IMG/VR virus record: IMGVR_UViG_3300042323_000705
Span: 1 to 64,000 of that record
Length of the DNA stretch: 64,000 bases
Direction: 5' to 3' (one strand)
From: a virus
Shown: positions 3,522-11,482 of the stretch, in pieces
Layout of the letters: each line of letters opens with the position of its first letter
How positions within the stretch are numbered: the stretch's first letter is position 1
Notes under the pieces: model-generated
The model's database searches: none
Told to the model about the DNA's origin: nothing
The model's input: only the letters and a program-made list of their open reading frames with translations
Program-made: the position numbers and the translations under genes

Positions 3522-4100
3522 ATGGCTTTCCCAACTTCAATCTCAGCTGCACAGTTCTCAGCTCTTGCTGTTTCTCGTGATGCTGTCCCAACCTCTCTTA
3601 CTGAGAGCAATCTTAAAGCAAACTTTGCTACTGCTGCAGACTTCGCAGAAATTGAAAACATTCGCGACATGCCTAGCTTCGGTACTCCTGCTAACATCGT
3701 TAAAGTTCCTGTTTATGGTCAAGCTCAGACCCAGTCTATCGGTGCTCAGTCAGACGCTCCTGACCTAGAACTAACGATTAACTATGTACCTTCAGAGTGG
3801 GCAAAGGCTAACGCTTCTTTTGCTACTACTGGTACACTAGGCGATGCAGTCGCTGATGGTATTGCAAAGGTATTCCAATTCGCGCTACTTCCTGCTAAGC
3901 CCCCAGCACTAACTACTGCTGTAACTGCTGGCGTTGGTGGTACTCTTGCTGCTCCAGTTCCAAACGCACTCATTTACTTCGTAGGTAAAATCGAATCACT
4001 ACTCGTTAACCCTGCTCGTGATGACGCATCAACTGCTACTGTAGCTCTTTCTATTCAGTCAGACTTCTATGGTCCTTACACTGTAACTGCTACAAGCTAA
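3522..4100 (+). CDS. Major tail (tube) protein
   Basis: 192 residues, Ala/Thr/Ser-rich with capsid-like codon bias, placed between the tail terminator and the chaperone genes. Features include long beta-prone stretches (IVKVPVYGQAQTQSIG, LELTINYVPSEW, ALIYFVGKIESLLVN) and a C-terminal strand ending TVTATS. This is the expected site and composition of the tube protein that polymerises around the tape measure. It is followed by a strong GC hairpin, which would end or attenuate this highly expressed transcript. Confidence 0.8.
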   Translation: MAFPTSISAAQFSALAVSRDAVPTSLTESNLKANFATAADFAEIENIRDMPSFGTPANIVKVPVYGQAQTQSIGAQSDAPDLELTINYVPSEWAKANASFATTGTLGDAVADGIAKVFQFALLPAKPPALTTAVTAGVGGTLAAPVPNALIYFVGKIESLLVNPARDDASTATVALSIQSDFYGPYTVTATS

Positions 4101-4145: not shown

Positions 4146-4373
4146 ATGAATAAACCATTTTCAAATAGTTATGTCGTAAAAGAGACATTAAAACATATGC
4201 AATCAAGTGTAGCTATTTCTACGCAAAAAACAATCGCAAGACTACCTGAGTTTCAAGATCAACCAGAAAAACTTCAAGAAGTAATGACTACTCTTGCTAA
4301 TCTTGGTAAATTGAACGCTATGATTGAGTCAATTCGCGAAAATAATGAAAATATTCTAGGAGATAAAGAATGA
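4146..4373 (+). CDS. Small hypothetical tail-region protein (75 aa)
   Basis: Helical protein without recognised domain, located between the tube protein and the frameshifted chaperone pair; its last codons overlap the start of the chaperone gene. The N-terminus (NKPFSNSYVVKETLKHMQSSV) and Glu/Asn-rich C-terminus give little clue. It is probably co-translated with the chaperones and involved in tail assembly; this is position-based. Confidence 0.55.
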   Translation: MNKPFSNSYVVKETLKHMQSSVAISTQKTIARLPEFQDQPEKLQEVMTTLANLGKLNAMIESIRENNENILGDKE

Positions 4374-4717
4374 AACATCTATTAAATTCAAAACTTCCAG
4401 TTAAAACTTACGATTTTATGGGTCAAAAAAATTCTGTTGAGATTAGGAAACTTTCTGCACAAGAAGTTCTTGATTTCCAGACTTATGTTAAATCAGTAGT
4501 TCCACAAGATGATAAAGAAACGCAAACTGCTGACTCAGGTTTTGCTATTCAATTTTATTTAATTAAAAAAACTGTTAAAGGTGCAGAAGATATCTCTGAT
4601 GAAGAGCTAAAAACTTTTCCATTAGAAGACCTCTCACGCCTTACGGAAGAAATTTTAAAGTTTTCAGGGTTAGATACTTCTAAAGTAGAGGGAAACGACT
4701 CAGCGAAGAAGAAGTAG
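4370..4717 (+). CDS. Tail assembly chaperone, short form (gpG-like)
   Basis: 115 residues ending at TAG 4715. It lies in the standard position of lambda G between the tube protein and the tape measure. The sequence begins with a beta-like segment (KTYDFMGQKNSVEIRKLSAQEVLDFQ) then helices, a pattern shared by chaperones that follow the tail tube gene. About 20 bases before the stop there is a canonical slippery heptamer in the correct phase, so a fraction of ribosomes should make the longer form. Confidence 0.75.
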   Translation: MKHLLNSKLPVKTYDFMGQKNSVEIRKLSAQEVLDFQTYVKSVVPQDDKETQTADSGFAIQFYLIKKTVKGAEDISDEELKTFPLEDLSRLTEEILKFSGLDTSKVEGNDSAKKK

Positions 4718-5028
4718 GCTACTATGAAATAGCTTATCATTTAAAGAAAAGTGTAAGTGAAATAAAGTCATTACCTTACGATGAGGTTTTAGGTTGGTTT
4801 GAATTTTTCGATAGATTTCCTCCAGAGTGGAGAGCAGATCGTAGAGCAGCTGTTATCACTATGTCTATGGCAGGAGATAAGGTAAAACCTGAAGACTTGT
4901 TTGATTCTTTACGAGTTATACGACATCAATACAACAAACAACAAGAGAAAGTTAATACAGTCAGCAATCGTTTTGTTGATAGGTTCAAACATCTATTTAC
5001 TGAGAAGGTAGACTTTTTAAATGATTAA
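4370..5028 (+). CDS. Tail assembly chaperone, -1 frameshift fusion (gpG-T-like)
   Basis: If ribosomes slip at GGGAAAC (4690-4696), 109 in-frame codons are followed by the -1 frame from 4696 to TAA 5026-5028, giving about 219 residues. The -1 frame is open for over 300 bases, has no good start of its own, and encodes a plausible domain (SVSEIKSLPYDEVLGWFEFFDRFPPEWRAD read in two parts). This matches the G/GT arrangement of siphophages, where the T extension recruits tape measure and tube protein. Confidence 0.8.
4690..4696 (+). promoter_or_regulatory. Programmed -1 ribosomal frameshift site GGGAAAC
   Basis: The heptamer is in X-XXY-YYZ phase relative to the short chaperone: zero-frame codons GGA (4691) and AAC (4694) re-pair as GGG and AAA after a one-base slip. 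The zero-frame stop follows at 4715, and the -1 frame continues into the T-like extension. GGGAAA-type heptamers are known frameshift sites in phage tail chaperones. Confidence 0.8.
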
Positions 5029-5335
5029 AGCAAGTATTACTTTCAAAAGAAAAGATTTAGAAAAACTAGTAAAGAAAGAAGTTTTAACAGAACTTTTAGA
5101 AGACAAAAATGATATTTTAACTTCAATGAAGCTAGCTACACCTGTTGATACCGGAGAAGCAAAATCTTCTTGGAAATTATTAGTTAAGAACGAAAAATTA
5201 TCTTTAGAAAATGATGAAAATTATATTTTCTATGTGAATAATGGAACATCTAAAATTCAACCTAGAAATTTTATAGAAAGAGTTTGTTTGTCTTTTGGTA
5301 AGATTGAGGGTAGTGCAGCTCGATTAACGCAATAA
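5021..5335 (+). CDS. HK97 gp10-like tail completion protein (putative)
   Basis: 104 residues starting within the end of the frameshift extension. The central motif TPVDTGEAKSSW followed by a strand (NYIFYVNNGTSKIQPRNF) strongly resembles the HK97 gp10/tail-completion family, in which 'P.DTG...W' precedes a YA..E.GT..... .F motif. In most siphophages this gene is between connector and terminator genes; here it is displaced to sit next to the tape measure, just before a strong terminator. The family call is by motif recognition. Confidence 0.6.
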   Translation: MIKASITFKRKDLEKLVKKEVLTELLEDKNDILTSMKLATPVDTGEAKSSWKLLVKNEKLSLENDENYIFYVNNGTSKIQPRNFIERVCLSFGKIEGSAARLTQ

Positions 5336-5340
5336 TATAT

Positions 5341-5384
5341 GCCCCATGATTTAACAATTGTGGGGCTTTTTTTTTTTTTTTTTT
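5341..5384 (+). terminator. Intrinsic terminator before the tape measure gene
   Basis: GCCCCA...TGGGGC stem (5341-5366) followed by 18 consecutive T (5367-5384). The ribosome binding site AGGAGG of the tape measure gene begins right after the T run, so the tape measure transcript must come from partial read-through or an unidentified start close by. The homopolymer length is unusual and may vary between clones. Confidence 0.85.
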
Positions 5385-5395
5385 AGGAGGCCTAA

Positions 5396-8300
5396 ATGAC
5401 AGTTTATGTCGATTTCGAAGTAAGAGACGCTAAGGTTAGGTCTTCAGTAGAAAACATTAATAATTCTATTAATAGACTTACAAGTTCTACTATAAAGACG
5501 TCTAGTACAATGAATCGCCTAGGCGCTAGTGATCTTAGCAACATTAACAAACAACTAGCTAGTATTAATAAAAATATTAGTAATATGAATACTTCTACAG
5601 TAAACGCAGTTGCAAATATGAAAACTCTTGCAATTTCTGCAGGAGCAGCTCTTACTGGTATTTTTGCAGGTTCTGCTTTTACAAGAGCAGGCGATTCTTT
5701 AACTAGTATTAACAACCGTTTATCACTTATTGTAGGTAGAGGGCAAGAGCTAGGTAGACTTAGAACTGAACTAGAAAGAATTTCTTTAACTACTAAAACA
5801 TCTATTAATAGTGGAGCTGAGGTTTTTGGTAGAATCGGTTTAGTATTAAAAGAAAGATACCCAACTGAAGATTTACTTGCTGCAACAGAAGCTATCCAGC
5901 TAGCTGCAAAAATTGGTGGTGGAGCGCCTGAGTCTGTAGATGCTGCTCTAGTACAGCTAAGCCAAGCGTTTGCAGGTAACTTCCAAAATGCTGGTGCAGA
6001 ACTTACTTCTTTGCAAGAACAAGCTCCTAAAGTCGCCTTAGCTATCGCTGAAGGATTAAATATCCCTTACGGCGAACTTAAGAAACTTGCTGCTGATGGT
6101 AAACTAAACTCAGACATTGTTCTTAATGCGCTTATTGCTCAGCTAGGTTCTCTTAGAGAAGAAGCCAACTTAGTAGAAAGCACAGTATCTGGTTCTTTCA
6201 ATATCTTATCTGAATCTTTTTCTAAATTTTTTGGAGAAGTTAACGCAGGCTTAGGGACTAACAAGAGACTCACTAGTTGGATGGAATCTCTAGCTGACTC
6301 TATGTACTACTTGTCAGGATATATTAGAGAAGACGTAGAAGACATTGTAAGCTATATTACAAATTTTGTATCTGAAATTTATAGCTCTGTTACTAACTTT
6401 TATAATAACTTTGGCAAACCTATTGTAGACACTTTTATTAGTGTTGTAACTTCTGTATACAGCTATACTAAAGGTCTATGGTCTAGGATTGCTGACCCTG
6501 TAGTTGAAATGCTAGAGAACATTAAACAAGTTATCTGGGACTTTGGTGTTTGGTTAATTTGGAACTCAGTTTGGAAAGATATTTGGGAAGATGTAATTGC
6601 ATACACTGCTAACTTGTGGAGTATGACTAAGCAAGTATTTTTTAACTTTGTTAATAATATCAAAGGAGTTTTTGAAAGACTAAGAGAATCTATCTCTTCT
6701 ATCTTTACTAATATTAAAGAAACTATCTCTAAAATTGATTTTAACTCTCTAATTAATAAGTTTAAAGAGTTTGTTGGCACAATAACTGATATTGATTTTA
6801 ATCAAATTTTCTTCTTGTCTGTTGTTGGTTTAGCAACTCTTTTTAGCACAACTTTACGTGGTATTGTTGTTGATGGTATTAAGAAAGCTTTACTTATTGC
6901 TAGTACTCTCTTGTTAGACTTTGATTTTATAAGATCAATAGCTATCAACTTTGCTAATGGATTAACTTCTTATTTGTATGAAAACTTAGTTGGAGAATCA
7001 AAAAAGATTAGCAATACTGCCATGAGTAATATTATGGAAAGTATGTTCTTAGAAGCAGAGTCTACTAATGAAAAACTAATACCTAAGCTTTCCAGATCTT
7101 TTGGTAACTTATTGAATGCAATAGGGGTAGGTATTGGTGGAACTTTGATTCCCTCATTGTTTACCGATATGAACCAAGCAGAAGTAGAAAATGCTGTAAA
7201 ACGGTATGCAAGTCCTATTGGTACTGCAGTTGCGTTAGGTATTCTTACTATTATGAGTGAGACTTTTAGAGGTGCTGCTGCTAGCATTTTAAAGTTTATC
7301 TTTAACATTGGCGAAGAAGGTATGAGTAAGCGCATCAATGAAAGCATTGGTAATATTGGTACTTTCTACAAAAGAGCAATTACTTCTTCTTTAGGTCTTG
7401 CTGCAGGTTACTCTATTGGTGGAATTATCTCTCAGCAATTAGAGCTAGGTGAAGGTTCTTTACTTGACACTGCTACAAAAATTGGTTCTTCTTTGGGAGT
7501 AACTATTTTTCAAGATATGGTAATGGGTATAACTGAAGGTGCAGGTAGGGGTTCCATGGGAGACTATCTAAGACGTGCAGTTTTAGGTACTCTTGTAGGA
7601 TTTAGTATTGGTAGTATTTCTTCAGACTTAGTAGTTAAGCCATTAATCGAAAGTATTTCAGGAGCTTCACTAAGTGCAGACTCTGAACAATTCATAGATA
7701 TTGCCTCTGGTATTGTTACAGGTATTGCTTACTTCTTTGGAGAACCCTTAGCTAATGACACTTTTGAGTATTTAAAAACAAAAGGTGGCGAGCTAATAAG
7801 CAGCATGACTTCTGGTTTAAATAAAGGTATTACTGGAAAAACAAGTAAAGCTTCATTACTTAGAGACATAGGTATTTCTTTAGGCTTTGGTGCTTTAAGT
7901 TTTGGAATTGCTCAAAATATTATTGCTAGTTCAGGTATGGAATTAAGCCCTATTCAAGAAGCAGGTGTTTATGCTGGTACTCTAATAGCCGGTGAATTTT
8001 TAGCGATGCTTACCAGGTCTTTAATAAAAAAGATACCTACTGCTGCTATTAAAAATTTAGGTAAAAATTTTATTCAAGTAGTTAAAAAACTCTTAGGTAA
8101 ATCTTTTGGTCGTGGCCTTCTTGCTGGTGTTCTACTAGGTTATTTTACTACTTTTTCATCTTCTATTGAAGGAGAGCTAAGAGCATTAGGCGAACAAATC
8201 TTAGGTATTAAAATTGAAGCTGGTTCTTGGACAGAAGCAGGCATTTTCTTTGGTTCAATTATTGTCTTAGGTTTAATTGGAGGATTAGTTAGCGTAATTA

Positions 8301-10309
8301 CTAGTCTAGGTGCAACTATTATTGCAGCTATCGGCTCGGCTTTACTTGTTGCAATTACCTCTGTTCCTTTCATTGTGTTTACTGCTATTGGTTCTGTCAT
8401 TGCAGCTTCAATGGTTCAGTTTATGGCTAAAGGTCTAACAGGAAAAGGCATTATTGAAGGATTTATGCCAATTGGCTCTGAATGGATTGGCAAACTACTA
8501 GATGTTCTTGTTATGGGTATTCTTGCTGGTGCAGCTTTACTACTTGCAGGAGCTAGCTGGCCTATTGTAATTGCTGCAGCTATTGCCGCTGCAATTTGGC
8601 AAGCACTTCTTTCTTACAATGTTATAGACCAAGCAGCTGTAAATGCTTTCGTAGACTGGGTTTGGAGTTCTCTTGTTTCAGGGTTTAACTCTATTGCTAG
8701 TACTGGTAGAGAGATTTGGAATTATATTCTTAAGTTTGATGACATGAGCTGGACAGAAATCGGTGCAACAATTGCAAATGATATCTGGACAGGTTTAAAA
8801 AGTTTAGGTACTCAAATCAGTAACTGGTTTAAAAACTTATTTAGTTTAGAAAACAATAATAACTTCGATCCTAATACAGAGTTAGGTAGAGCTAACCTTA
8901 GAAGACAAATAAGAGAAGGTTCTGGCTTACCTGTAGGTCCTAGAGAAAACTTTGCTACAGGTGGTTTTGTATCCGGTCCTGGGACAGGTACTTCTGATTC
9001 TATTCCTGCGATGCTATCTAATGGCGAATTTGTAATTAACGCTAAAGCTAGTAAGAAGTTTGGGCCTTTATTAGCCTCTATCAATAAAGGAACTTATGGC
9101 CGATTTGCAGAAGGGTATACTCCTGGAGTTTCGCCTTCTTTTGAGGGTAGTGGTAGAACTTACGCAACTGCTCCAACAAATACACTAGAGGCGTTTATGT
9201 CTCTTTGGGACGGTAGCAAATCTAAAACTTTAGAAGAATTAATAGCCACACAAAAAGAAAGTAATTCTGAGACTAACAAAGAAATTTTAGCAAAAAGTGA
9301 AGCTAGTGATAAAACTTCAGAAGCTACAGATAAAATTAAGGAACTTAAAGAACAACTAAAGTCTATTGCTGAAAGTGCTATTGAGTTAACTACTATGAGC
9401 CCAGCTTATTTTGCTCAAGCGGGTTTAAGTGGTGCTGAGGCAATGCTACAATCTTTTAAAGATAACTTTAGTGGGCTACTTAAAGGTGAATTAAGTTTTA
9501 AAGATATGATTGGGGGATTGTTAGATACTTTTACTAATAATATTATTGATAATTTTGTTGGTGGTTTTACTAATGCTCTTTTTAATAAATTTGATCTAAC
9601 TTCTTTATTCGGAGGTTTATTTTCAAGCGCTGCAGGCACAGGCGCTCAAGCTGGCGGCGGAGTCTTAGCGCCTAATACTTCCGGGTTAATGCAAAACGGT
9701 ACTCCTGTTTTTGTTACTAATATGCCTATGAGTTCTGGAGCAGTTAGCCAAAATCCTTTAAGTGAAGGAGCAACTAATGGTGCTCAAGCAGGAGGAGGGT
9801 TCTTTAGTAGTCTCTTCTCAGGTATCCAAGGTTTCTTTGGAAACTTATTTGGTGGTATTGGTAACCTTTTCTCTGGCTTGTTTGGTAGTGGTGGCCTTGG
9901 TGGGTTATTTAGCCTATTTAGTGGTGGTAGCTTATTTGGTGGTTTTGCTACTGGCGGTTTTGTTTCAGGACCAGGAACAGCTACTTCAGATTCTATTATG
10001 GCTATGCTATCCAATGGTGAGTATGTAGTAAATGCTGCTACAACTAAACGTTGGTTGCCTTTCCTTGAAACACTAAATGCTAACAAAGGTCGTCTACCAG
10101 CTTTTGCTAATGGTGGACTAGTTGGACCGAGCAATCCTAGTGCTTTTAAAACACTACAAGAAAATAATAACAATAAGGACAAACAACAAGTGTTCAACAT
10201 TAATGTTTCAGGTGATGTCTCCATGCAAACTCGTAAAGAGATTGCCCGTATGATTCCGGAGATCACTGCTGGGGTCAATATGACTAATCGCGAGAGAGGA
10301 TCACGATAA
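5396..10309 (+). CDS. Tape measure protein
   Basis: 1637 residues, the longest gene in the window, directly after the tail chaperones; its length sets tail length. Residues about 70-300 match the conserved tape-measure domain (TRAGDSLTSINNRLSLIVGRG then SLTTKTSINSGAEVFGRIG). The N-terminus is Ser/Asn-rich coiled coil, the middle (about 440-1100) has many hydrophobic segments that could cross the host inner membrane during DNA entry, and the C-terminal third contains two copies of the FATGGFVSGPGT..SDSI.AMLSNGE motif (near residues 1185 and 1520), common in tape measures. Glycine/phenylalanine-rich linker around 1460-1515. No lysozyme or peptidase motif was seen. Confidence 0.95.
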   Translation: MTVYVDFEVRDAKVRSSVENINNSINRLTSSTIKTSSTMNRLGASDLSNINKQLASINKNISNMNTSTVNAVANMKTLAISAGAALTGIFAGSAFTRAGDSLTSINNRLSLIVGRGQELGRLRTELERISLTTKTSINSGAEVFGRIGLVLKERYPTEDLLAATEAIQLAAKIGGGAPESVDAALVQLSQAFAGNFQNAGAELTSLQEQAPKVALAIAEGLNIPYGELKKLAADGKLNSDIVLNALIAQLGSLREEANLVESTVSGSFNILSESFSKFFGEVNAGLGTNKRLTSWMESLADSMYYLSGYIREDVEDIVSYITNFVSEIYSSVTNFYNNFGKPIVDTFISVVTSVYSYTKGLWSRIADPVVEMLENIKQVIWDFGVWLIWNSVWKDIWEDVIAYTANLWSMTKQVFFNFVNNIKGVFERLRESISSIFTNIKETISKIDFNSLINKFKEFVGTITDIDFNQIFFLSVVGLATLFSTTLRGIVVDGIKKALLIASTLLLDFDFIRSIAINFANGLTSYLYENLVGESKKISNTAMSNIMESMFLEAESTNEKLIPKLSRSFGNLLNAIGVGIGGTLIPSLFTDMNQAEVENAVKRYASPIGTAVALGILTIMSETFRGAAASILKFIFNIGEEGMSKRINESIGNIGTFYKRAITSSLGLAAGYSIGGIISQQLELGEGSLLDTATKIGSSLGVTIFQDMVMGITEGAGRGSMGDYLRRAVLGTLVGFSIGSISSDLVVKPLIESISGASLSADSEQFIDIASGIVTGIAYFFGEPLANDTFEYLKTKGGELISSMTSGLNKGITGKTSKASLLRDIGISLGFGALSFGIAQNIIASSGMELSPIQEAGVYAGTLIAGEFLAMLTRSLIKKIPTAAIKNLGKNFIQVVKKLLGKSFGRGLLAGVLLGYFTTFSSSIEGELRALGEQILGIKIEAGSWTEAGIFFGSIIVLGLIGGLVSVITSLGATIIAAIGSALLVAITSVPFIVFTAIGSVIAASMVQFMAKGLTGKGIIEGFMPIGSEWIGKLLDVLVMGILAGAALLLAGASWPIVIAAAIAAAIWQALLSYNVIDQAAVNAFVDWVWSSLVSGFNSIASTGREIWNYILKFDDMSWTEIGATIANDIWTGLKSLGTQISNWFKNLFSLENNNNFDPNTELGRANLRRQIREGSGLPVGPRENFATGGFVSGPGTGTSDSIPAMLSNGEFVINAKASKKFGPLLASINKGTYGRFAEGYTPGVSPSFEGSGRTYATAPTNTLEAFMSLWDGSKSKTLEELIATQKESNSETNKEILAKSEASDKTSEATDKIKELKEQLKSIAESAIELTTMSPAYFAQAGLSGAEAMLQSFKDNFSGLLKGELSFKDMIGGLLDTFTNNIIDNFVGGFTNALFNKFDLTSLFGGLFSSAAGTGAQAGGGVLAPNTSGLMQNGTPVFVTNMPMSSGAVSQNPLSEGATNGAQAGGGFFSSLFSGIQGFFGNLFGGIGNLFSGLFGSGGLGGLFSLFSGGSLFGGFATGGFVSGPGTATSDSIMAMLSNGEYVVNAATTKRWLPFLETLNANKGRLPAFANGGLVGPSNPSAFKTLQENNNNKDKQQVFNINVSGDVSMQTRKEIARMIPEITAGVNMTNRERGSR

Positions 10310-10915: not shown

Positions 10916-11482
10916 ATGAGAACGCTAAGCGCAGCAGCATTAGCTGCAATAAATTTACCTAATCCAAAATTTGTATTATTTGCAAAAATTGTGCTAAAAA
11001 GCACTACACTCTTAGTAACTAGTAACTCTTTTAATCATGATTTTAATGAAGAAACTTATTTAAGTAATAACTCTTTAGTTAGTTTTGGACCTCCAAGAAT
11101 TTCAAGCTCAGTTGATCGTGAAGTATATGAGTTAATTTTCCTTGATCACGATAATTTAATTCAACAAGAATTAAGGCTTGGTATTACTGGGAAAAAAGTT
11201 ACTGTCTATGCTGCTTTTTACAATAGCTCAAATGTTTTACTTAACTCAGTAAACGATGTTTTAATTGCCTATGAAGGTTTAATTGATAGTGGTAAAGTAG
11301 TTAATGATGGTTCAGTTAAGCAAGCTATCATATCAGTAGCTTCGCCAATGGCTACTTTAGATTCTATTGGTGGCTACATCGTATCAAGAGATGGTATGGA
11401 TCAAGTTAGCTCTACAGATACTTCTTTTGATGAAGTTTATGCTGGTGGCGACACTGTTAATCTTAAGTGGGGAAAAGACTAA
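10916..11482 (+). CDS. Minor tail / tail-tip hub protein
   Basis: 188 residues. The opening MRTLSAAALAAI is characteristic of hub-type minor tail proteins that precede the host-specificity protein in GTA-like and lambda-like tails; then come paired strands (FDEETYLSNN-type turn, VYELIFLDHDN, ITGKKVTVYAAFYNSS, VLIAYEGLIDSGKV). These resemble the beta-domain of baseplate hubs (gp27-like fold). Stop overlaps the next start. Function by family resemblance and order. Confidence 0.6.
   Translation: MRTLSAAALAAINLPNPKFVLFAKIVLKSTTLLVTSNSFNHDFNEETYLSNNSLVSFGPPRISSSVDREVYELIFLDHDNLIQQELRLGITGKKVTVYAAFYNSSNVLLNSVNDVLIAYEGLIDSGKVVNDGSVKQAIISVASPMATLDSIGGYIVSRDGMDQVSSTDTSFDEVYAGGDTVNLKWGKD

Follow-up and report, generated by a model that had tools for sequence, protein, structure and literature searches.

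A GGGAAAC heptamer in a siphovirus-like tail module as a probable site of G/GT programmed −1 ribosomal frameshifting

A review of phage lambda describes low-level −1 slippage that yields gpGT; there, G is said to bind the tape measure protein and T to bind the major tail protein, with a 30:1 ratio as crucial (PMC5009743). A second review gives the lambda slip site as G_GGA_AAG and states that modification of tRNA-Lys alters the G:GT ratio (PMC7618472). An HK97-like tail chaperone cluster contains two genes with reported frameshifting of 6% and 7% (PMC3711429), and the G-T pair of the Haloarcula virus HCTV-1 is listed with the slip site G_GGA_AAC (PMC5009743). The window analysed here (the whole stretch of DNA, 64,000 nucleotides) comes from a virus record of 73,778 bases that carries a siphovirus-like tail module. 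An earlier note had proposed that a "canonical" GGGAAAC in it joins a tail chaperone to its extension by a −1 frameshift. The adjective holds in part: the site departs from that of lambda, but has its published precedent in HCTV-1.

The slippery heptamer lies at 4690–4696 on the plus strand. Read in the open reading frame that begins with ATG 4370, its codons are GAG (4688–4690), GGA (4691–4693), and AAC (4694–4696), which is the X XXY YYZ phase required of such a site. This zero frame (4370..4717, plus strand) encodes a predicted gpG-like tail assembly chaperone of 115 aa and closes at TAG 4715–4717. The spacing from heptamer to stop is 18 nt and not the 19 given earlier. The −1 frame (4696..5028, plus strand), a gpT-like extension, is open for 110 codons (4696–5025) up to TAA 5026–5028, in agreement with the ≈330 open bases predicted. 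Both product sizes were reproduced on recomputation, namely 115 aa for the zero frame and 219 aa for the fusion of codons 4370–4696 with the −1 extension.

The motif GGGAAAC occurs five times on the two strands of the window against 5.43 expected, and is thus not in excess. Among mechanically called ORFs of at least 60 aa, the window holds four in-phase heptamers of the type XXX(AAA/TTT)N whose −1 frame runs at least 60 nt beyond the zero-frame stop. The heptamer at 4690–4696 exceeds chance because the in-phase site is conserved in T-family loci, and not by its count. Further upstream in G there is an in-phase TTTAAAG, which was rejected as the slip site because its −1 extension would be just 7 aa in the window (L001) and 4 aa in the relative L005.

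The zero-frame protein matches phrog_42 "minor tail protein" (E 9.4e-8). Its matches to Pfam chaperone models were all below cut-off (16.9 against 27 for the lambda-G model). Among the 45 aligned G members, whose starts were set at the first ATG so that some may be cut short, 12 match the TAC_7 model and 1 the lambda-G model at E ≤ 0.01. The AlphaFold model of G, built from these 45 aligned sequences (mean pLDDT 76.7), resembles the HK97 tail assembly chaperone 2ob9 (Z 7.8, rmsd 3.6, 94 residues, 18% identity) and YqbN 3klu (Z 7.8), followed by 5ir0 (Z 6.7), 3fgx (Z 6.1), and other chains at Z 3.5 and below; by the comparison tool's own warning, Z under 8 may reflect merely a common arrangement. 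Foldseek gave weak matches, with 5ir0 first (E 0.075) and 2ob9 second (E 0.096), and a search of the PDB with the G profile returned nothing convincing. We consider the likeness to 2ob9 credible because gene position and sequence families agree.

The −1 frame, hereafter T, scores 25.4–25.5 bits against the Minor tail protein T family PF06223, just under the cut-off of 25.9 (E 1.8e-5), and the same model is matched by 23 of the 45 aligned T members at E ≤ 0.01. T also matches phrog_337 (E 1.6e-6) and phrog_16513 "tail assembly chaperone" (E 6.9e-5). Its predicted structure is all-helical (mean pLDDT 86.3) and found no match in the PDB, either by structure or by profile. Compared with an 80%-identical relative, the differences by codon position are 21/11/41 in T (of 103 each) and 26/13/41 in G (of 107 each), and this bias indicates that both frames code.

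The G/T pair is placed between the genes for the probable major tail protein and the tape measure protein, with two small extra ORFs intervening, all on the plus strand. The probable major tail protein, which would be the partner of T, is encoded at 3522..4100 (phrog_158, E 1.4e-6; no Pfam match). Directly before G lies a 75-aa ORF (4146..4373) of no convincing family, which overlaps the start of G by 4 nt; a small ORF just before G is also present in four of the six annotated relatives compared. A 104-aa ORF resembling tail completion or Neck1 proteins (5021..5335; phrog_5, E 1.4e-8) lies between T and the gene for the 1637-aa tape measure protein (5396..10309; PF20155, E 9.2e-38; phrog_17300, E 5.4e-48), the expected partner of the chaperone. 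By position only, an ORF of 90–149 aa stands between T and the tape measure gene in 38 of the 45 distinct loci described below, and two of the seven sequences without one end too early. A terminator-like hairpin with a run of 18 T behind it was seen at 5341–5384, after the 104-aa ORF and ahead of the tape measure gene. The length of the run may be an assembly matter, because the otherwise matching contig L021 has 13 T.

Relatives were collected by scanning IMG/VR with peptide patterns from the T frame only, which matched 157 stretches, 66 of them confirmed as relatives. An in-phase slippery heptamer is found within the frame overlap in all 66 T-family loci, and in 35 of them it is GGGAAAC. The 66 include the window's own sequence three times (100% T identity), and collapsing the set at 95% T identity left 45 distinct loci. 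Their heptamers are GGGAAAC (21), GGGAAAG (19), GGGAAAA (3), CCCAAAC (1), and AAAAAAG (1), taking the last of type XXX(AAA/TTT)N where one locus has several in phase. Shuffling of the G codons leads one to expect 2.56 of 45 loci with an in-phase heptamer, against 45 of 45 observed. Leaving out L021, which is the window's own copy, the other 44 distinct loci fall into 24 clusters at 70% identity, so the conservation does not rest on one lineage.

Six annotated phage loci were also compared, and an in-phase heptamer is present in four: EBPR siphovirus 1 (GGGAAAG), DSS3_PM1 (GGGAAAC), RcCronus (GGGAAAC), and phi3LM21 (AAAAAAC), the last two being weak T matches (E 5e-4 and 3e-3). In the record of the distant match RcCronus, the annotated tail assembly chaperone is joined from two pieces. 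The Pelagibacter phages Kolga and Aegir, which have an identical G and a related T, showed no heptamer of the tested type in phase. In these two (L017, L019) the G and T frames overlap in a −1 relation, and the L017 overlap at 2780–2860 contains GGGGAAG. DSS3_VP1 was also among the matches.

With every one of the 66 loci carrying an in-phase heptamer, the window site would, by its sequence, join the well-known G/GT kind of frameshift. The central proposal of the earlier note, a tail chaperone joined to its extension by a −1 shift, is supported by the family matches, the G model, the place of the genes, the codon bias, and the 66 loci. G/GT programmed −1 ribosomal frameshifting at this GGGAAAC, within a siphovirus-like tail module, is in our judgement very probable.

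That T is instead a separate gene with its own start inside or after G, reached by re-initiation or an internal start, is how the GenBank records of EBPR siphovirus 1, DSS3_PM1, Kolga, Aegir, and phi3LM21 would have it, where the T-like stretch is annotated as its own ORF. We regard this as very improbable for the window. Here a stop at 4681–4683 closes the −1 frame on the upstream side, and the first ATG, GTG, or TTG in that frame is the ATG at 4861, from which a product of 55 aa would remain; the earlier claim that this frame has no good start was thus confirmed. The conserved T residues L2, Y10, A13, and L16 all lie upstream of that ATG and would be lost. A start codon precedes the conserved Tyr in the −1 frame in 10 of 44 distinct relatives, and there is none in the other 34. 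A separate start would also leave the in-phase heptamer of the 66 loci unexplained.

The window is a single virus record known from sequence alone, and its change of frame might be put down to a sequencing or assembly error or to a decayed gene. Yet other contigs, with T identities of 100%, 80%, and about 50%, show the same heptamer and frames, and the in-phase heptamer throughout the 66 loci and the coding bias in both frames likewise speak against error or decay, to which we give next to no credence. Equally hard to credit is a real slip site that acts by transcriptional instead of ribosomal slippage. The runs in GGGAAAC are just three identical bases long, whereas a polymerase generally requires longer homopolymers to slip, and the tandem-codon phase is conserved.

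Under programmed −1 ribosomal frameshifting, most ribosomes would translate the 115-aa G chaperone and end at the TAG. A minority would slip back one base on G_GGA_AAC, where the tRNAs on GGA and AAC could re-pair with GGG and AAA, and these ribosomes would bypass the TAG and make the 219-aa GT fusion; we infer both the slippage and its rate. By analogy with lambda, G would bind the tape measure protein and the T part would recruit the major tail protein, so that the G:GT ratio would control tail assembly. The efficiency of G_GGA_AAC would depend on the host. Since AAC would here be decoded by tRNA-Asn, the effect of host tRNA may differ from that in lambda.

The distance from heptamer to stop varies within the family. 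It is 0 nt in 27 of the 45 distinct loci (among L034–L086), and the stop adjoins the heptamer in 18 of the 22 GGGAAAG/GGGAAAA loci. The 18-nt spacing of the window is common to L024, L029, L030, and L083. For comparison, the PRFect paper, in which downstream folding energy serves as a general feature, reports mean spacings of 26 nt for its training phages and 36 nt for the Xu set (PMC10274946). In the open-access literature searched, we found no report of a stop directly behind the slippery site in tail chaperone genes. Nor, in the portions of that literature covered, did we find one of a downstream stem at tail assembly frameshift sites like that described below for the relatives.

Folding of the window downstream of the heptamer gave a weak hairpin of 8 bp at 4714..4737 on the plus strand (−7.0 kcal/mol). 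No stable stimulatory stem was found there, given an MFE of −7.0, 7 of the 14 family-register pairs, and an MFE z of −0.61 against synonymous sequences, and overall the downstream structure of the window is indistinguishable from synonymous expectation (z −0.5 to −1.2). Across the 45 distinct loci, the stretch 5–70 nt past the heptamer is more stably folded than its dinucleotide shuffles (mean z −1.93), with 25 of 45 below −2, as against −0.26, −0.26, and −0.47 in three control stretches. T codons 3–24 likewise fold more stably than synonymous recodings (mean z −1.80), with 24 of 45 below −1.5 (controls −0.34, +0.35, and −0.15; the partly overlapping codons 15–32, −0.81). Mean z by heptamer is −3.09 for GGGAAAG (n = 19), −3.62 for GGGAAAA (n = 3), −1.01 for GGGAAAC (n = 21), −2.60 for AAAAAAG, and +0.50 for CCCAAAC. 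The window's near relatives L024, L026, and L031 have z below −3.

The family stem is centred on the conserved Tyr codon, with positions −4..−17 paired with +4..+17 inside the T coding sequence. At least 11 of its 14 pairs are present in 11 of 19 GGGAAAG, 3 of 3 GGGAAAA, 1 of 1 AAAAAAG, 2 of 21 GGGAAAC, and 0 of 1 CCCAAAC loci. The stem-bearing GGGAAAG/GGGAAAA loci are L034, L044, L047, L050, L057, L058, L059, L060, L061, L064, L065, L067, L076, L086, and L015, while the GGGAAAG loci L048 and L056 have no stem at all (z +1.73 and +1.03). EBPR siphovirus 1 folds strongly at the stem region (−25.4 kcal/mol). The register is specific, since 78.6% of cells pair in place and no more than 49.7% after sliding, but shuffles reach 77.2%, and the covariation score was equalled by 102 of 500 of them. 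The GGGAAAC/CCCAAAC set behaves alike (56.2% paired vs. 54.9% in shuffles; score reached by 43 of 500). Because 15 GGGAAAG/GGGAAAA loci share one 70%-identity cluster, the stem loci are not independent. The downstream stem in the relatives is accordingly a lead only, without covariation support.

Upstream of the heptamer, the Shine-Dalgarno-like energy (−3.80 kcal/mol) shows no excess over the −120..−100 control (−3.75) and some excess over the −60..−40 control (−2.60), and no stimulator of this kind stands out in the window. For the GGGAAAG/GGGAAAA relatives we can suggest, tentatively and with some doubt, that heptamer, adjoining stop, and a T-coding stem reaching 14 pairs form a compound signal, through which termination and RNA structure would jointly set the G:GT ratio.

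A second in-phase heptamer in the window, GGGAAAA at 11470–11476, lies 3 nt before the stop of a 188-aa ORF, and its −1 frame enters a 1254-aa ORF. Comparison with 14 of 16 related loci (L088 and L094 left out) showed the heptamer kept in three, all at 92–100% protein identity. The other 11 have no in-phase heptamer here and still encode WGK just before TAA, 8 of them reading TAATG. The site was rejected as a second frameshift, being kept in near copies only, and is probably the conserved WGK end together with the ribosome-binding site of the following gene.

For annotation, this means that the window phage and its relatives DSS3_PM1 and EBPR siphovirus 1, where two genes are annotated, most likely encode one G/GT gene. 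The 45 distinct sites vary in heptamer, stop distance, and stem, and they offer material to test the share of each element in the G:GT ratio. The interest lies in the annotation and the family survey more than in the window site alone.

Among the annotated phages, EBPR siphovirus 1 (GGGAAAG) and DSS3_PM1 (GGGAAAC) share with the window a related T, an in-phase heptamer, a small ORF before G, and a tail gene downstream. Unlike in the window, their zero-frame stop adjoins the heptamer directly; their records annotate separate genes and no frameshift, and in EBPR siphovirus 1 three ORFs separate T from a large "tail protein." The HK97 chaperone 2ob9 is alike in predicted G fold (Z 7.8), although sequence identity is just 18%. 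HCTV-1 has, by its published description, the identical heptamer in the same gene pair, but an archaeal host. With lambda G/GT the window shares overlapping −1 frames, a heptamer near the end of G, and a place between the major tail protein and the tape measure; its T frame scores just under the cut-off of the Minor tail protein T model. It differs in the second codon of the slip site (AAC vs. AAG) and in having additional small ORFs, one ahead of G and one separating T from the tape measure gene. Its G matches the lambda-G model weakly, the comparison with lambda having been made through family models. The G/GT type of frameshift has long been known from lambda, and the window very probably presents an ordinary case of it, for which the prediction is sound.
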